From Heterostelium multicystogenum (taxonomy: Eukaryota; Evosea; Eumycetozoa; Acytosteliales; Acytosteliaceae): DNA of 17,685 bases. The stretch lies in contig RCNN01000415.1 of the NCBI GenBank assembly GCA_003667245.1, positions 1 to 17,685 of the forward strand. Direction: 5' to 3'. Positions 4,864-17,685 of this stretch are shown here, piece after piece; within the stretch, counting starts at the first letter, position 1; each line of letters starts with the position of its first letter. The notes beneath the pieces were generated by a model, which was not told where the DNA came from, made no database searches, and worked only from the letters and a program-made list of their open reading frames with translations. The position numbers were made by a program, and so were the translations under genes.

Positions 4864-4996
4864 GAGTGATTTCGAGTAGTATTTTCATCATTACTTAAAT
4901 AACAATTAAGATATTCATTGTTGTAAACAGGTATATATATAAATATTGTTCTTTCATTTTCCGATAGTTTCACTAATTGAATTTTTCAATAGTAAA

Positions 4997-7558
4997 ATGA
5001 AATATATTCATTTATTTTTATTAGTTTTAGTTCTATCTCCGCTTTACATCAAAGCAGGTGAACAAATTATGTTACCAGCTTATGATCTGTGCCTTCAGGA
5101 TCCTGGTGATTTATCAAATAGATATGTTAAGGCTGTTACCTGTGATTCTTCCAATTTATTGCAGAAGTTTTCCAAAAAAGATTTTACCACATACCAATAT
5201 TACGTCAATGATGTAACTGGTAGATGTTTAGATGGAAATATTGATGATGGAACTCTTGCTGTTATCCAATGTAACAACGGATATCCATCTATCAAGACCA
5301 ATCCAAACCAGAAATTTGTTACCGCCCTTCCTCAAATCAAGGTTTTATCTACAACAAAGTGCATTGAAGTAGATTTAACTACTAAAGTATTTAAAATGAA
5401 CACATGTAATACAAACTCTAAAGGTCAACAGTTTTCTATTGCAGGTGACTACTCTGCAGATTCTCTTGGTGATCTTGAAACTCATCGTGAAAAAGTAATG
5501 AACAAGGTGCAACTTGGTCTTAATATAGCATCCAGTGCCTTAGGTATTCTGTCCGCAGTTCTAGCAGTCCCAACTGGTGGTGCTTCTGAAGTAGCTTTTG
5601 GTATTTTCAAAGCAACTAAAGCGGCCTTTGGTAGTGCTGGTGCATCATCATTAGGATCCCTTCTTTCAATTGGATCTTCTGTTGGAGGTGCCTTGACCAA
5701 AAACAATCAACAAGAAACAATGTGGAAGAAGATGATCCAAGAAACACAAAAGATTGTTGGTGAGAAACTTCAAGAAGATGATATGATTCAACTTCAAGAA
5801 ACATTGTCTGGTTTAAACAGACTTATCAATGAATTTTATTCACCAACAATGACCAGTCTCACTGTCTCTCAACAACACAAATCTGAAGTTTTTGTTTCTG
5901 TACTTGCAGAATTGATTGCTCAAGAAGAAATTTTCAAAAATCCTCTCTATCAATACTTGTTGCTGCCAATTTACTGTCAATATGCCAATTTCCATCTTTC
6001 TGTGCTCAGAGATGGTGTTTTATTGGGTCCATCTTTGGGTTACACTCAAGAAACAGTAAAATTCTACCAATCAATGCTAGATGATAAGATTCAATCATTT
6101 AAATCTCATGTTGATAATTCAATTAAACTTTATAATATTCTTAATTTCCAAGCATCTTATACTGGTACAACAACTGATTGGCAAAAATATATTGATGCTC
6201 TTACATATCAAGAAGTTGCACTTAAATCATTCTCCAATAGATGGCCAAAGTTCAGTCTTACAGATAATCCAAATGGTTCAGATATTGACCCACTTCCACA
6301 GTTAACTACATCACGAATTTTTGGAGATGTATCTTCGATTTCATTCCCAAATGATGCTTTGGGTCAATTCCCCTTGAAATATAGATTGGCTAAACTAGTT
6401 ATCGGTTATGGATTTAAAACTACTGGTGGTGCCTATTTTAGTTATATTACTCAAATAGTAATGACTGATGTTTCTGGAGCCACCTTCACTATTGGAACTG
6501 TCGCCGGAATGTATACTACAACAGTAGTTGTTTCAAGTCCAATTGTATCAGTAGATTTTTACACTGGAGCATCAATTGATGCAATGAAATTAAACTTTCA
6601 AGATGGAACATCCAGTGGACAGATTCCAAGTACTACCCCAGTACCACCACCAGTACATGTTTCAGTTGAAGGTCAAATGCTTGCTGGTTTCATTTTGGGA
6701 GCTGGTCCACAAACTGTTATTAATGGAATAGCTGCTGTCTTCCATGATCTTGATCTTGTTCCAAATCAACCAATGGTTAACATTCAAAATAGAGAATCAT
6801 TATCATGTATGGGAATAACTCAACCATCAAGTGGACTAGGTACATTCCAAATGCAAGTTTGCAATTGGGGTATGATTTACCAGAAATGGGTATTGTCTTC
6901 TACTGGAATTCTTTTCAACCCAATTACTTTCCAAACCGTATCAACAACTACTTCAAACACTGTCTCTCTCAAACGATTTGATTCAACATCAACTAAATAC
7001 ACCCTAATACCTTCATATGAGGGAAATGGTGTCATTCTACATCAACTTCAAATTTTAGGAACAAATACTTGTCTCAAGGATAATCTTGGAAACATTAATG
7101 TTGTTACTTGTTCAGCAACCGATAAAACACAACTGTGGGATATGGACTACCTTTTAATGTCTGGATTCTTTGATCCTTTGATGACTGGAGTTGTGATTCA
7201 ATCTGTAAAAACATCAACTACATGTATTGTTTCTCCAAGTACAAGTGGTACATTATCAGCTTCTACCTGTGCTACTACATCTGCCAATCAACAATTCAAA
7301 GTTAATAGAAACTATATCCTTGGTATAAATGATCTACAAATTAGATCTAATGGAGTACAAAATACAGCTGCTCTTGCTGGTGCTGATCCCTACCCCAACT
7401 TGATGGTAAACCAAATTGGTACAACTTCAAAATACACTATCATGGATGCATCATCTCTTGGATGTCTTGAACTATCCTCCACAAACACATTATCATTCGC
7501 AGTTTGTGATCAACTTGAAACCAATCTTGCTCAACAATGGAAATTCATTAAACCATAA
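4997..7558 (+). CDS. Secreted Cry/delta-endotoxin-like protein with lectin domains, 853 aa
   Basis: Intact, intron-free. An in-frame ATG at 4946 adds 17 residues, but the start at 4997 gives a classic signal peptide (MKYIHLFLLVLVLSPLYIKA, cleavage near residue 20), so I chose it. Residues 21-165 look like a ricin-type beta-trefoil (repeated CL-D and C-x-G/N blocks, QQF near 155). Residues 165-420 are helical: a hydrophobic Gly/Ala-rich segment (171-235), amphipathic helices, then LPIYCQYANFHLSVLRDG (323-340) followed by a GYT...FYQSML pattern. That arrangement matches the pore-forming helical domain I of Cry toxins (Pfam Endotoxin_N). Residues 430-585 are beta-rich, perhaps jacalin-like, with a proline-rich linker near 547-554. 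Residues 588-853 form ricin-like trefoils with QKW, QLW and QQW motifs. It may act as a secreted glycan-binding pore former against bacteria or competitors; target and activity are inference. Confidence 0.9.
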   Translation: MKYIHLFLLVLVLSPLYIKAGEQIMLPAYDLCLQDPGDLSNRYVKAVTCDSSNLLQKFSKKDFTTYQYYVNDVTGRCLDGNIDDGTLAVIQCNNGYPSIKTNPNQKFVTALPQIKVLSTTKCIEVDLTTKVFKMNTCNTNSKGQQFSIAGDYSADSLGDLETHREKVMNKVQLGLNIASSALGILSAVLAVPTGGASEVAFGIFKATKAAFGSAGASSLGSLLSIGSSVGGALTKNNQQETMWKKMIQETQKIVGEKLQEDDMIQLQETLSGLNRLINEFYSPTMTSLTVSQQHKSEVFVSVLAELIAQEEIFKNPLYQYLLLPIYCQYANFHLSVLRDGVLLGPSLGYTQETVKFYQSMLDDKIQSFKSHVDNSIKLYNILNFQASYTGTTTDWQKYIDALTYQEVALKSFSNRWPKFSLTDNPNGSDIDPLPQLTTSRIFGDVSSISFPNDALGQFPLKYRLAKLVIGYGFKTTGGAYFSYITQIVMTDVSGATFTIGTVAGMYTTTVVVSSPIVSVDFYTGASIDAMKLNFQDGTSSGQIPSTTPVPPPVHVSVEGQMLAGFILGAGPQTVINGIAAVFHDLDLVPNQPMVNIQNRESLSCMGITQPSSGLGTFQMQVCNWGMIYQKWVLSSTGILFNPITFQTVSTTTSNTVSLKRFDSTSTKYTLIPSYEGNGVILHQLQILGTNTCLKDNLGNINVVTCSATDKTQLWDMDYLLMSGFFDPLMTGVVIQSVKTSTTCIVSPSTSGTLSASTCATTSANQQFKVNRNYILGINDLQIRSNGVQNTAALAGADPYPNLMVNQIGTTSKYTIMDASSLGCLELSSTNTLSFAVCDQLETNLAQQWKFIKP

Positions 7559-9784: not shown

Positions 9785-11048
9785 ATGAATAATTATTTAA
9801 ATATACACAAATATTATAGCAAAAGCATAGGACTCCAAGAGTCAAGATTCAACTCTAGTATTAAAAAAGTAGAGAATGTAGATTTTTCACAAGTAGAGAA
9901 AGTGAATCAACCACAACAACAGCCACTTCAACAAAAGGATAGACATTTCATGATGCCAACAGAATCTTCAATGGCAAAGATTTGTAATAATAGTACACCA
10001 ATTGATCCAGTCAAGTTGCCAAATGTCATTAGAAGAAAGATATATGCTCCAAACATTATGGAGCATTATATAAATCCAACAGTTTCATCACTGGTATGTT
10101 AAATTAAGAAAACTATTAATTATTTAATTAATATTTATTAATGTTAATATTTAAAGGCAAAGGAACATATTCCAAATAAAGGTTTGGATCAAGGAATTAA
10201 ACCTCTGGAAAGAGTTGCCCGCAGAACGTTAAAGGTACCAAGCATCAACAATAGATTTATTAATCCTACAGTTTCATCAAACGTATGTAGATTATTATTA
10301 TCAATAATTATTATTAATTAGATAAATACAGGCCAAGCAGACTCCAAGTGAAAATTTGGATCAAGAAAATAAGCCTCTGGAAAGAGTGACTAAAAGAACG
10401 TTAAAGGTACCATCCATCAACAATAGATTCATAAATCATACAATTTCATCTGGCGTATGTATATTATTATACAATACTTAAATAATATTAATTGGAATTT
10501 AAAAAAGGCAAAGAAACAACCTAAGATTGTATCTGTGGATCAAGAAAAGAAGCCTCTGGAAAGAGTGACCAAAAGAACGTTAGGTGTACCAAGCATTAAA
10601 AACAGATTTGTCCAAGACACCATATCATCAATGGTAATAGAGAGTTTTAAAATAATTCTAAATTGTTAATTAATATATATCTGTTATTTGTATAGGGCAA
10701 GAAACATAGTCCTAGTTTACCTATGGATAGATTAGAAACTACTTTGGCAAGAGTCAACAAAAGAACGTTAGATGTACCAACCATCAACAATAGATTTGTC
10801 CAAGACACCATATCATCAAGAGTATTATAAATTTAAATAACAAATCTAAAGTATATATATTAATTAATCTTTTATGAATATAGGCCAAACAGCAGTTTAA
10901 AAGTCATAGAGTAAGATCGGAGTCCAACAGAGTTACACCAGAGTCTACAGAGGTCAAAGATTGTGAGAATCTTATTGTTGAAAGTGGCTTTTTAATACAT
11001 TTTTGTATTATTATCAGTATTATTGTAAGTATCTGTAAGTATGTATAG
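9785..11048 (+). CDS. Six-exon tail-anchored protein made of repeated symmetric exons, 324 aa
   Basis: Exons: 9785-10093, 10157-10282, 10332-10454, 10508-10633, 10696-10821, 10884-11048, with introns of 49-63 nt. All introns are phase 0, start GTA and end AG, and the spliced frame is open throughout. Exons 2-5 (42, 41, 42 and 42 codons) each encode one copy of a module: AK...., K/T-L-E/A-RV..RTL.VP.I.NRF(I/V)..T(I/V)SS. The end of exon 1 holds an older copy (AKICNN...NVIRRKIYAPNI...INPTVSSL). Exon 6 starts like a module (AKQQFKSHR) and then switches to an acidic linker and a hydrophobic segment FLIHFCIIISIIVSI (306-320) before CKYV, which looks like a tail anchor. Exon 1 has a Gln-rich stretch. 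There is no signal peptide. The basic modules could bind nucleic acid or acidic partners on a membrane surface; that is inference. Family not recognised. Confidence 0.85.
10157..10821 (+). repeat. Four tandem exon duplications (exons 2-5)
   Basis: Each unit is one exon of 123-126 nt plus a short intron. Exons share long identical strings such as AAGCCTCTGGAAAGAGT, AAAAGAACGTTA and CAACAATAGATT, while the introns share little beyond splice sites. Exons 4 and 5 share the ending GTCCAAGACACCATATCATCA, and exons 2 and 3 share the AAGGTACCA...ATCAACAATAGATT core, which suggests stepwise duplication. Confidence 0.9.
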
Positions 11049-11095
11049 AAGTATATTGGAATTGAATAGTGGTTGGTTGGACGGTTTCGGTAGGT

Positions 11096-11142
11096 ATCTA
11101 TTAATAGATTTTTCTTTTTTTCTTTTCTTCTTCTCTTTCTCC
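11096..11142 (+). other. Palindrome followed by polypyrimidine tract
   Basis: ATCTATTAATAGAT (11096-11109) is a perfect 14-nt palindrome, followed by an almost uninterrupted C/T tract to 11142. It lies between the stop codon of the exon-repeat gene and the first hairpin of the array, so it could mark a transcript boundary. Nothing firmer can be said. Confidence 0.4.
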
Positions 11143-11175
11143 AAAATTAACTCCAAGGGAAATCGGTCCAGCAGA

Positions 11176-11800
11176 TTGAGCAACATTGGTTCCGACAGCT
11201 GTGACTAAGGAATAATGTTGCTCAAATGAGATAGTCAATAGAGTTGGGAACTTGAGACTATCTCATTTTCTCGAAAGAGAAACTACTGGCCGTCGTGGCT
11301 AAGGTCAACAATCGATTTTGAATGGAGGCGAGCTGTTCAAATTGATTGTGGATGTAGAGTCACATGATGATTGATTCTAAATCAATCGATCATGTCTCGG
11401 CGTAGGAGGATCAGGATCCTGGAAATATACTATTCATACTTGTTTGTGTTTGTCATAACATACTTTGACAAACACCACATCACTGGGAATCGGTCTAACC
11501 TGTGATCCTTGAGTTGCAGGAGGGGAGGTTAGGCAGTGATGGAAAGATGAATATGTACTCATTAAATCGGCATTTAATTGAGACAGTTTCCTTTGATACC
11601 TCGGCTCATATACATCTTCGACCTTGACATAGGAATCAAGTGGGACTTGGATTCTTATGGTTACACACTCACAAAGATGCTCTTGGTCTTTGGAGGCTCG
11701 AGTGTGTAAGCCACTGTGGTGCCAGTTGGACTCCACCTCCGCGTGGTTGGCACCGGGAAACTCCATGAACATCAAAGTTTGCCGAACTTGATGTTCATGG
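11176..11800 (+). ncRNA. Candidate structured RNA: chain of about 14 consecutive hairpins
   Basis: Stems in order (arm1/arm2): 11176-11187/11214-11225 perfect 12 bp; 11224-11236/11256-11268 perfect 13 bp (shares its edge with the first); 11267-11272/11277-11282 with a GAAA tetraloop; 11287-11291/11297-11301; 11308-11322/11336-11349; 11357-11376/11380-11398 (18 bp, small bulges); 11407-11412/11415-11420; 11446-11455/11466-11475 perfect 10 bp; 11493-11501/11526-11534, flanked by 11479-11484/11535-11540; 11558-11567/11572-11582; 11628-11641/11645-11659; 11661-11670/11700-11709 perfect 10 bp with inner 11672-11677/11687-11692; 11718-11724/11748-11754; 11763-11779/11785-11800 (16 bp, one bulge). 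G+C is clearly higher than in the surroundings. The odd pairs are G.U on the + strand. It begins 128 bp after the upstream stop codon, so it may be a separate RNA or a long 3' UTR. No known rRNA, tRNA, snRNA or ribozyme signature was recognised. Confidence 0.7.
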
Positions 11801-12006
11801 TGGCTAAGAGAGTCCATCAATTTTCTAATCTTTGCATCACCCACTCACACATTGTTTTGTAGATCACCAGATCAATCTTGCATTATATCTTCGCATTTTT
11901 AGATCAACAAGCACTTCACCCCACATTCCAACTTCACTTGTTTGTTTCAAAATTCATTTTTTACTTTTTCACACACCCCACTTCACAGTCAACTTGTTTT
12001 TGTCTA

Positions 12007-12072
12007 ACAAGTATTGCTATTATCAAGTGATATAAATATAATCAGTTATTACTTGGTTATAGCAATACTTGT
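12007..12072 (+). repeat. Conserved long hairpin of R2 (copy 2)
   Basis: Arms 12007-12030 and 12049-12072, 24 positions: 21 Watson-Crick pairs, two G.U pairs (as + strand RNA) and one T.T mismatch, with an 18-nt loop. Copy 3 has the same hairpin at 16541-16607, where one of the G.U pairs is A-U. In copy 1 (about 7806-7877) the arms are eroded but still partly complementary. Confidence 0.75.
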
Positions 12073-12104
12073 GTAGATTCAATTATTTATAATGTAATAT
12101 TTCC

Positions 12105-12244
12105 AATAACAACTTATTCAACTTAGTATATTTATCGTAGAATCAACAGTTTGACAAAGTTTCAAAGCATTTGTGATTGATTACTACCTATAAACGACTA
12201 AGTAAGCTGAACATCGAAGAAATATAGTTATAAGAGTTGTTATT
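12105..12244 (+). repeat. Nested stems inside R2 (copy 2)
   Basis: Outer arms AATAACAACT (12105-12114) and AGTTGTTATT (12235-12244) enclose inner arms ACTTAGT (12121-12127) and ACTAAGT (12197-12203), all perfect. The same four arms are kept in copy 3 at 16640-16649, 16656-16662, 16734-16740 and 16772-16781, while the sequence between them varies. Confidence 0.6.
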
Positions 12245-12334
12245 AATTTATTTTAAAAGATAACTAAGAGTTAATTTGGTTATTGATGTAACCTTTAGAA
12301 GTCTAGCACACAGGTCAGTTCAACAAGAGAGACT

Positions 12335-12367
12335 CATAGTTTTGACTTGTAAGTCAAAGTGACTATG
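12335..12367. repeat. Palindrome CATAGT..TTTGACTTGTAAGTCAAA..ACTATG
   Basis: Core TTTGACTT-GT-AAGTCAAA (12341-12358) is perfect, extended by CATAGT/ACTATG with a GTG interruption. It lies about 170 bp before the gene start. A related copy is in R2 copy 3 (16873-16900), and a decayed one near 16305-16330. It could be an operator-like site of the amplified promoter. Confidence 0.55.
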
Positions 12368-12799
12368 TCAAGTTCATCACGGACAAAATAAGTGAACATA
12401 GGATTGGATATTATGAATTCAAGTCTGGAGTATCACCAAGACAAAGCTACTATTCGTAGATAATGAAGCTTGCACTACTTGTCAGAGTATAGATATATTG
12501 CCATAAAGACATGATAATAATGTTGTAACTATGGCAGAATCTTCTCAAGATGCTTCCTAATCGACAGAAGATGGTATCTTGACCAACATCATCTTTCAAC
12601 GATCATCAACCACTTTTCAACAGCTCCACCAATACACACAACTCCAGCCCGAGAATTCTAATCCATCTTGTTCAGCTAGATGAATGTAGTTAAGAAATGG
12701 TACATCTGGTATTTGAAGGTAACTATTATATAAGCTTAAGCAATTTTCAATGATGATACTAATTTTTCTATTTATTAAATCAGTTTTAACATTGATTAT

Positions 12800-13164
12800 C
12801 GATTCGATTGTACAAAGGAATTCATCAAAGAGCATCTGTGCAAAATCTTTGGTCTCTCTTCATATTTCAAGCTCTCAACTAAAGTTAAACCTAAAGAACA
12901 TGAATAAAGACTCTGACTCACTAGTTCTTTTATGGATATACCTGTATACAATTCTAGGCCATTCGACTGCAGCAAGCTCTTGATGAATATTCATGTAGAT
13001 TCAACTCAACAAGTCGAATTTATTTGATGTAGTCGACTGGAGTACTGTATATATAAATAGGACAATGTATGATTCAAATTTATGTCGTTCCAGCCAATAT
13101 CATTTATTTAAGTTCACATTTATTTGGACCAGTTCAATTATGACATTTGTTTAGATCTTTCCAG
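12800..13164 (+). other. Gene debris between R2 copy 2 and the glycosyltransferase relic
   Basis: Contains the short frame RFDCTKEFIKEHLCKIFGL continuing to a TAA near 12907, further stop-interrupted frames, and a TATA-like TATATAAATAG at 13050-13060. No family is recognised. Confidence 0.4.
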
Positions 13165-16475: not shown

Positions 16476-16498
16476 GAGCATATTTGCCATTTTTATCT

Positions 16499-17320
16499 TT
16501 TTTCCCACACCCCACTTCACAGTCAACTTGTTTTTGTCTAACAAGTATTGCTATTATCAAGTAATATAAAGATAATCAGTTATTACTTGGTTATAGCAAT
16601 AACTTGTGTAGATTCAATTATTTATAATGTAACATTCCCAATAACAACTCACTCAACTTAGTATATTTATCGTAGTATCAACGTTTGACAAAGTATCTAT
16701 ACATTTGTAATTAATTACTACAACCTATAAACGACTAAGTAAGTTGAACATCGAAGAAATATAGTTATAAGAGTTGTTATTAATTTATTTTTAAAAGATA
16801 ACTAAGAGTTAATTTGGTTATTGATGTAACCTTTAGAAGTCTAGCACAAGTCAGTTCAACAGATACTCATTGTATTGACTTGTAAGTCAAAGTGACTATG
16901 TCAAGTTCATTACGGACAAGATAAGTGAATATAGGATTGGATATTATGAATTCAAGTCTGGAGTATCACCAAGACAAATCTACTATTCGGAGATAATGAA
17001 GCTTGCACTACTTCTCAGAGTATAAATAGACATGATAATCAAGAGTAACTATGGCAGAATCTTCTCAAGATGCTTCTATTCGACAGAAGATGGGATCTTG
17101 ACCAACATCATCTTTCAACGATCATCAACCACTTTTAAACAGCTCCATCACTACACAACTCCAGATCCAAGAATTCTAAGCTATCTGTTCAGCTAGGTGA
17201 ATGTAGTGATTGAAATGGCACAACAAGCATTTGCTAAGGTAACTATTATATAAGCTTAAGCTATTTTCAATGATAATGCTAATTGTTCTATTTTATTAAA
17301 TCAGTTTTAACATTGATTAT
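16499..17320 (+). repeat. Repeat R2, copy 3, carrying the promoter and first exon of an AAA-ATPase-like gene
   Basis: Closely matches copy 2 over its whole length. Hairpin arms lie at 16541-16564 and 16583-16607, nested stems at 16640-16781 and a palindrome at 16873-16900. The unit includes a TATA box (17021-17030), ATG 17051, exon 1, intron 17239-17304 and the first 16 bases of exon 2, after which copy 2 goes its own way. Confidence 0.8.
17021..17030 (+). promoter_or_regulatory. TATA box before the AAA-ATPase-like relic
   Basis: TATAAATAGA 21 bp before ATG 17051. Same motif as the box of the Cry-like gene. The spacing is so short that transcription would start at or after this ATG, so the original start codon may lie downstream. 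Copy 2 has TATAGATATA at the matching place. Confidence 0.45.
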
Positions 17321-17685
17321 GGAAACCCAACCAATATGATGACAAAGTTCATGGTACTTCATCTTGACTTCTCTGGCTTGAATCCACAAACCTTTGAGGT
17401 AAGACTACACAAAATGAAACAAGGCTAGCATCATTTCTGACTAAAAATCAAAACAGGTTTTTGAGACAGACTTTAACAGCAAGGTCAATAGTTCTGTCAA
17501 GCCTTTCATTGAGGACTACCAGCATCTTCTCATATCTAAGAGGACAGAAGAGAGGTTTCCAGATCGAGGCTTTACCCAACTGTTTGGAGAGTTTCGATTC
17601 TTTGAAGAGATCTTACACTCTGGTACACACTTTACGTTCTCATGACGAATATGTGTCAGTCTTAACAATTCGTTTCAAGCAATCT
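17051..17685 (+). pseudogene. AAA-ATPase-like (Pfam AAA-ATPase_like type) gene, frameshifted and cut by window end
   Basis: Exon 1 starts MAESSQDAS; one base fewer than copy 2 near 17078 shifts the frame before GILTNIIFQRSSTTFKQLHH, and a TAG follows. Introns 17239-17304 and 17399-17456 have clean GT/AG ends. Exon 2 encodes FNIDYGNPTNMMTKFMVLHL then DFSGLNPQTFE, the strand after the P-loop in this family. Exon 3 continues VFETDFNSKVNSSVKPFIED and RFPDRGFTQLFGEF. At 17633-17655 the text for VL-DEYVS, the Walker-B-like LIDEYD site, is present but split by a one-base loss, giving TGA 17643. No Walker A lysine motif is visible in exon 1, so the 5' part is missing or replaced. In intact relatives a PD-(D/E)XK domain often follows. 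The function of the family in amoebae is unclear. Confidence 0.65.

Follow-up and report, generated by a model that had tools for sequence, protein, structure and literature searches.

What kind of element is the dense chain of hairpins in the 17,685-nucleotide stretch of Heterostelium multicystogenum DNA analysed here (the window, contig C410 of our numbering), and does its structure serve an RNA? An initial annotation made from the letters of the window described some 14 independent stem-loops in close succession, and the density of this chain is real. On the + strand, 11176-11805 folds with a minimum free energy (MFE) of -236.6 kcal/mol, far outside the range of 40 dinucleotide shuffles (z -10.4); the - strand reaches -206.4 kcal/mol (z -7.3, dinucleotide shuffles). 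When folding z was scanned in 350 overlapping 200-nt segments covering both strands, values below -4 were confined to four segments starting at 11101-11601 and three starting at 11901 or 12001. The latter three contain a palindrome at 12007-12072, to which the lowest single z (-6.6) belongs. Segments of the block average a z of -2.8 (+) and -3.6 (-) against about -0.2 elsewhere, and GC content is higher in the block than in its immediate surroundings.

The block is a subtelomeric repeat, a fact that had been missed. Searching the species' own assembly (29.7 Mb, 528 contigs) with 11150-11830 retrieves 42 matches, 23 of which, the window's included, are full-length with 96-100% identity; the others are fragments or weak. 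Our comparison covered 21 of these 23, namely the window's copy and those on stretches L009-L028 but not the two on C474 and C483, together with 13 partial-copy stretches. Arrays of (TAGAGGG)n occupy 11 of the 17 contig ends viewed in the telomere-ward direction, and some continue into (TAAGGG)n. We further note that the telomeres look two-part, with inner (TAGAGGG)n and outer (TAAGGG)n, for example at L014:1-140 and L028:8630-8779. Exact searches, one of them with longer arrays, place TAGAGGG arrays on at least 24 contigs among the matches listed. At least 14 of these carry a full copy (C42, C43, C47, C68, C74, C290, C315, C328, C354, C388, C402, C473, C474 and C483, among the matches listed), at least seven a partial copy (C145, C199, C253, C471, C482, C484 and C485), and C382, C481 and C495 are without a block match among the matches listed. 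The + strand of the block faces the telomere array in 14/14 linked full copies listed, at a distance of 1.2 to 7.0 kb; the remaining nine full copies, including that of the window, are on contigs without an array among the matches listed.

The MFE model places the true extent of the block at about 11149 to 11830, the hairpin chain being about 690 bases long (Table 1). Perfect stems of 12, 13 and 13 bp lie at 11176/11214, 11224/11256 and 11763/11788, and 10-bp stems at 11446/11466, 11628/11650 (one G-U pair) and 11661/11700. The GAAA tetraloop of the initial annotation is that of TTTCTC-GAAA-GAGAAA. By our own count the MFE model of 11149-11835 has 13 hairpin loops; beyond a plain row, it sets the hairpins partly inside a larger branched structure. 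Domain 1 is among the two most uniform parts of the block, with five variable columns in 11150-11299 across the 21 copies, and the central domain is closed in the MFE model by pairing of 11295-11306 with 11620-11626 and 11710-11714. A shared motif had not been seen by the initial annotation; GTGGCTAAG is present at 11295 and 11800, however, and GTGACTAAG at 11201. The block has three occurrences of the motif GTGRCTAAG, of which that at 11800 alone takes part in the ribozyme fold described below; those at 11201 and 11295 are both inside near-invariant domain 1.

Table 1. Coordinates of predicted and candidate features in and around the hairpin block (positions in the window).
Feature	Position	Strand	Description	Basis
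Subtelomeric gene with repeated exons	9785..11048	+	Last exon 10884-11048; possibly co-transcribed	Sequence
Candidate upstream promoter element	11069..11094	+	GTGGTTGGTTGGACGGTTTCGGTAGG; putative function	Few differences among 21 copies
Candidate core promoter	11099..11142	+	TATA-like TATTAATAGA, then oligo-T/pyrimidine tract 11109-11142	
Domain 1	11149..11310	+	Helix 11164-11174/11283-11292 around three hairpins, then GTGGCTAAGG	Fold
Domain 1 hairpins	11176-11225, 11226-11266, 11267-11282	+		Fold
Central multi-branched domain	11295..11714	+		MFE model and consensus fold of 21 copies
Predicted self-cleavage site	11717..11718	+	Between U11717 and G11718	P1 position in RF00094 and RF02682 alignments
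HDV-like ribozyme	11718..11816	+		RF00094, 37.7 bits; pairs checked in 27 copies
P1	11718-11724/11748-11754	+	7 standard pairs	21/21 full copies
P2 pseudoknot	11728-11733/11810-11815	+	GGACUC/GAGUCC; extra pair 11727/11816 in window	21/21 full copies
P3	11735-11737/11745-11747	+	ACC/GGU	21/21 full copies
L3	11738-11744	+	UCCGCGU	21/21 full copies
P1.1	C11739-G11756, C11740-G11755	+	Two C-G pairs	Both in 21/21 full copies
P4	11763-11775/11788-11800	+	13-bp helix	21/21 full copies
J4/2	from 11802	+	GGCUAA; C11804 equivalent to the catalytic cytosine	GGCUAAG in 21/21 full copies

No RNA family had been recognised in the block, and a gathering-level Rfam search of the window returns no match. Below that level, the full RF00094 model matches 11716-11817 with 37.7 bits, at an E of 0.0012 when 1 kb is searched and of 0.00017 for 141 nt; RF02682 matches the same region with 30.8 bits. 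Both scores are under the Rfam gathering cut-offs of 50 and 44, respectively, a cut-off that is a curation threshold and describes no structural feature. RF00094 also matches 18/18 other full copies scanned directly (36.4-38.6 bits); RF02682 matches only two of these 18, both with U at 11727. Counting against a ribozyme, RF00094 finds nothing over the whole genome at E up to 10. With RF02682, the window's ribozyme reaches a whole-genome E of 0.0095, tied with two copies and behind another HDV-like site (0.002). Since E-values alone are no proof, unrelated models having reached E 0.0016, 0.0078 and 0.025 in like searches, the parts of the ribozyme were checked one by one.

Every ribozyme pair that was checked, as well as L3 and J4/2, is intact in 21/21 full copies. 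The region combines a P1 whose cleavage-site pair is R-Y, a P2 pseudoknot, P3 with L3 and P1.1, and P4 with J4/2, which together make up the structure of the HDV class. P2 lends independent support, because the printed Rfam structure line leaves its bases unpaired. Across 424,572 strand-bases of examined sequence, a descriptor of the HDV fold reaches 19 or higher at no site except copies of this ribozyme (21 full, 2 truncated), and its maximum elsewhere is 17.5; for the background level, some match arose in 42 of 200 single-base shuffles, the best again 17.5. Domain 1 was considered as the site of another HDV ribozyme, at its GTGGCTAAGG (11295), since two ribozymes could free a circular RNA; this was rejected, the descriptor score of 12.5 there being within background against 20.0 at 11718. 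The fold of 11718-11816 argues strongly for an HDV-like ribozyme, predicted by the model alignments to cleave itself just before G11718. The absence of a recognisable family therefore does not hold for the final 100 bases, whose HDV-like ribozyme scores under the Rfam cut-off, and stands for the remainder: the hairpin body (11149-11716) has no gathering-level Rfam match in the window and only weak ones at a relaxed threshold.

The candidate shares with the HDV-like ribozymes of RF00094 and RF02682 the nested double-pseudoknot order P1-P2-P3-P3'-P1'-P1.1-P4-J4/2-P2', the GGCUAA with its catalytic C, and the R-Y pair at the cleavage site (here G-C), which PMC5640933 gives as a property of the class. 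It differs in its score below the Rfam cut-off, in a single additional C separating P2 from P3, and in its place, as it closes a conserved structured block on the 3' side and does not open a retroelement. Such an additional nucleotide, mostly C, is also described for fungal HDV variants in the same paper (PMC5640933). Those variants have a loop-E in P4 and typically C-G at the cut, whereas P4 here is a plain 13-bp helix and the cut-site pair is G-C.

The better-scoring HDV-like site (C27:6433-6515, equal to L042:3434-3516) is the best RF02682 match in the genome (33.6 bits; E 0.002 in the whole genome, 0.0003 in 1 kb). It is single-copy, as a search with 321 surrounding bases retrieves itself alone. 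Both ribozymes contain the P3/L3 core CACCUCCGCGUGGU (L3 UCCGCGU), GGAAAC, a J4/2 core (GCCAAGA in the C27 ribozyme) and one C between P2 and P3. P1 (AGGGAAC/GUUCCCU in C27), P2 (UGCAGA/UCUGCA) and P4 differ in sequence with the pairing kept, a comparison made by eye because structure-blind alignment misplaced P4. The pattern CCTCCGCGTGGN{4,12}GGNAAC occurs at 31 places in the genome, 30 in the repeat and one at C27, versus none for the reversed control. On the descriptor, the second ribozyme stays at or below 17.5 because the fixed spacing suits it poorly. It lies between two AATAAA sites, about 255 nt past the stop of an upstream gene that, by eye, looks like one for phenylalanine hydroxylase, and possibly trims the 3' end of this gene or the start of the next transcript.

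Is the fold maintained among the copies? In 50-nt bins, the minor-allele frequency averages 0-0.03 between 11170 and 11820, compared with 0.005-0.08 across the gene upstream and 0.025-0.14 on the downstream side. The block is more uniform than what follows it and than the greater part of that gene, whose last exon (0.012-0.038) is near block level. Gene conversion may homogenise the copies, which share descent and are not independent. Among 240 pairs in the 21 copies, no double compensatory change is present, and pair-breaking changes were tested instead because the copies are too alike. The consensus fold has 13 pair-breaking substitutions against 30.2 expected, with 0/2000 permutations as low; pair-keeping substitutions are not enriched (12 seen, 11.7 expected). 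Because the consensus structure comes from the same sequences, the test was repeated with five single-copy folds, which give 22, 25, 20, 18 and 15 breaks against 30-32 expected (P 0.002, 0.021, 0.002, 0.000 and 0.000; 1000 permutations each). Equal-length upstream controls show no deficit (P 0.27, 0.94, 0.84 and 0.22), and the two taken downstream tend to depletion (P 0.08 and 0.06). The effect is weaker in the hairpin body without the ribozyme (21 breaks against 27.4, P 0.02). Breaks are also depleted in the fold of the - strand (24 against 32.3, P 0.006); changes keep the pair in 13/35 cases on the + strand fold versus 6/30 on the - strand fold, which leans toward an RNA of the + strand. This conserved fold with its deficit of pair-breaking changes fits both the large structured non-coding RNA and the highly structured 3' UTR put forward earlier, and from conservation alone we infer a function for the hairpin body.

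Truncated copies provide a comparison for the ribozyme. The six that retain the region and were checked are all damaged in it: the catalytic C is changed to A in L030, L032 and L033, GGC to GUC in L039, and P1 has mispairs in L030, L031, L032, L033 and L034, with L031 losing the last P1 pair only. RF00094 gives these six 33.5, 32.3, 29.6, 25.7 and 22.1 bits, and one no match. Two further truncated copies, on C253 and C484, were left out of the pair check, and their RF02682 score of 18.6 bits equals that of L034 (C485). The counts of intact and damaged ribozymes are not counts of independent events, since the copies share descent and conversion.

Dictyostelium core promoters have a TATA box followed by oligo-T. 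The order of the TATA-like and oligo-T elements at 11099..11142, where the pyrimidine tract varies in length between copies, resembles this arrangement and may mark a promoter that gives the block an independent transcript. The reading we favour, with somewhat better than even confidence, is a subtelomeric, likely non-coding RNA gene in which about 570 nt of hairpins are followed by an HDV-type ribozyme that likely forms the 3' end. A candidate promoter at about 11069-11142 would start an RNA near 11140-11149 in the direction of the telomere, and once RNA polymerase is past 11816 the ribozyme would fold and cut. Cleavage just before G11718 would set the 3' end of the RNA, and the upstream product would end in a 2',3'-cyclic phosphate beside the hairpins, with no poly(A) tail. 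The downstream piece would begin with a 5'-OH inside the ribozyme fold, run telomere-ward, and be degraded or persist as a telomere-ward RNA. A - strand ORF of 136 aa (11434-11844) was rejected as coding; it is not conserved among the 21 copies, its longest open stretch within the block being 133 codons in 6/21 copies and 76-113 in 15/21.

The closest alternative, which we regard as unlikely, makes the block the 3' UTR of the 9785-11048 gene, with the ribozyme cutting the pre-mRNA about 670 nt past the stop codon and yielding either a poly(A)-less mRNA that ends in hairpins or a lowered mRNA level. This gene, a multicopy one whose exons are internally repeated and whose product has a hydrophobic C-terminus, is on the same strand and ends about 100 nt ahead of the block. 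Its last exon is open in 16/21 copies and matches parts of the block in uniformity. AATAAA is absent between 10884 and 12300 in 19/21 copies, which agrees with this alternative and with the favoured reading alike; the variant poly(A) signal ATTAAA, present at about 11561 in the window, counts against the favoured reading. However, the ribozyme is intact in the five copies in which the frame of the last exon seems interrupted (L015, L020, L022, L026 and L027), possibly through sequencing or assembly errors, and a conserved promoter-like stretch separates gene from block.

The uniformity of the block could also come from gene conversion in a structured repeat without an RNA function, its hairpins acting, if at all, as DNA, as recombination or replication signals. 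In its favour, the repeat is subtelomeric, multicopy and near-identical between copies, and the - strand fold is both strong and depleted in breaking changes; conversion alone, however, leaves unexplained a ribozyme intact in 21/21 full and 0/6 truncated copies, and the block has fewer pair-breaking changes than its equal-length upstream neighbours. We consider this improbable. Of similarly low probability is a small-RNA precursor cut by a Dicer-type enzyme, an idea suggested by the hairpins in series: most stems are shorter than miRNA hairpins usually are, the Rfam miRNA matches in the block are weak (E > 1), and the ribozyme is left unexplained.

HDV-like ribozymes of eukaryotic genomes are best known from retroelements (PMC7761336), and freeing the 5' end of retrotransposon RNA is a well-known role of theirs (PMC7761336, PMC3774820). 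A relic or part of an R2/LINE-type mobile element, with the ribozyme freeing such an end at 11718, would agree with this and with the multicopy nature of the block. The R2, L1Tc and other LINE ribozymes (PMC3774820, PMC4035085, PMC4748587) are likewise multicopy and genomic and cut their co-transcript, as is predicted here, but they are at the 5' end of the element, whereas here the conserved block precedes the predicted cut. The uniform sequence is mainly upstream of the cut and stops with the ribozyme. The starting points of six truncated copies with a retained ribozyme are about 11424, 11597, 11648 (two) and 11694 (two). An R2-type element is highly improbable because none of 15 ORFs compared with Pfam has a reverse-transcriptase domain and none of these six copies starts at 11718. 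An integrated structured RNA replicon is not supported: the other CTAAG motifs of the block have background descriptor scores, which leaves it without the second ribozyme of a circular replicon, and two exact patterns gave 0 matches in viral contigs. Phage similarity amounts to a single chance 25-nt match.

A non-coding RNA gene ended by its own ribozyme invites a comparison at the telomere. TERRA and other telomeric RNAs that initiate in subtelomeres are transcribed from the subtelomere toward the telomere, and the orientation of the block is compatible with this if the + strand is transcribed. We are aware of no TERRA cleaved by a ribozyme of its own. More tentatively, and as a possibility we hold to be doubtful, many chromosome ends may encode a long structured RNA that its own HDV-type ribozyme cuts into a stable hairpin RNA and a 5'-OH telomeric RNA; if so, this splitting of a telomere-directed transcript would amount to a ribozyme-run making of telomere-associated RNAs. 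If an RNA that is conserved, probably non-coding and directed at the telomere ends in an intact ribozyme in many chromosome-end copies, the class would gain a role new to it, and subtelomeric RNAs a ribozyme-based path of production. The portions of the open-licence literature available to us describe no HDV-like ribozyme element of this subtelomeric or telomeric kind, nor one in Dictyostelium.

Other features of the window and of the contig ends deserve mention. An ORF of 870 aa at 4946-7558 has Ricin_B_lectin and delta-endotoxin N-terminal Pfam domains, and a protein search with it gave no match at E 0.001. Positions 1-700, with about 50% GC, are coding-like in shifting frames and read by eye like what we take to be the 51-kDa subunit of mitochondrial complex I, which would make them a pseudogene or else a gene disturbed by errors of assembly. 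In another repeat-bearing stretch, L028:290-1759 is a 490-aa ORF without a Pfam match, and L028:6710-7338 contains telomere-proximal gene fragments from the AAA-ATPase_like family (PF09820), with 6710-7030 above and 7057-7338 below the family cut-off. The palindrome with z -6.6 is a near-perfect one of 26 bp (88%) found both at 12007-12072 and near 16541, and its first occurrence falls within 11989-12803, a segment similar to 16488-17323.
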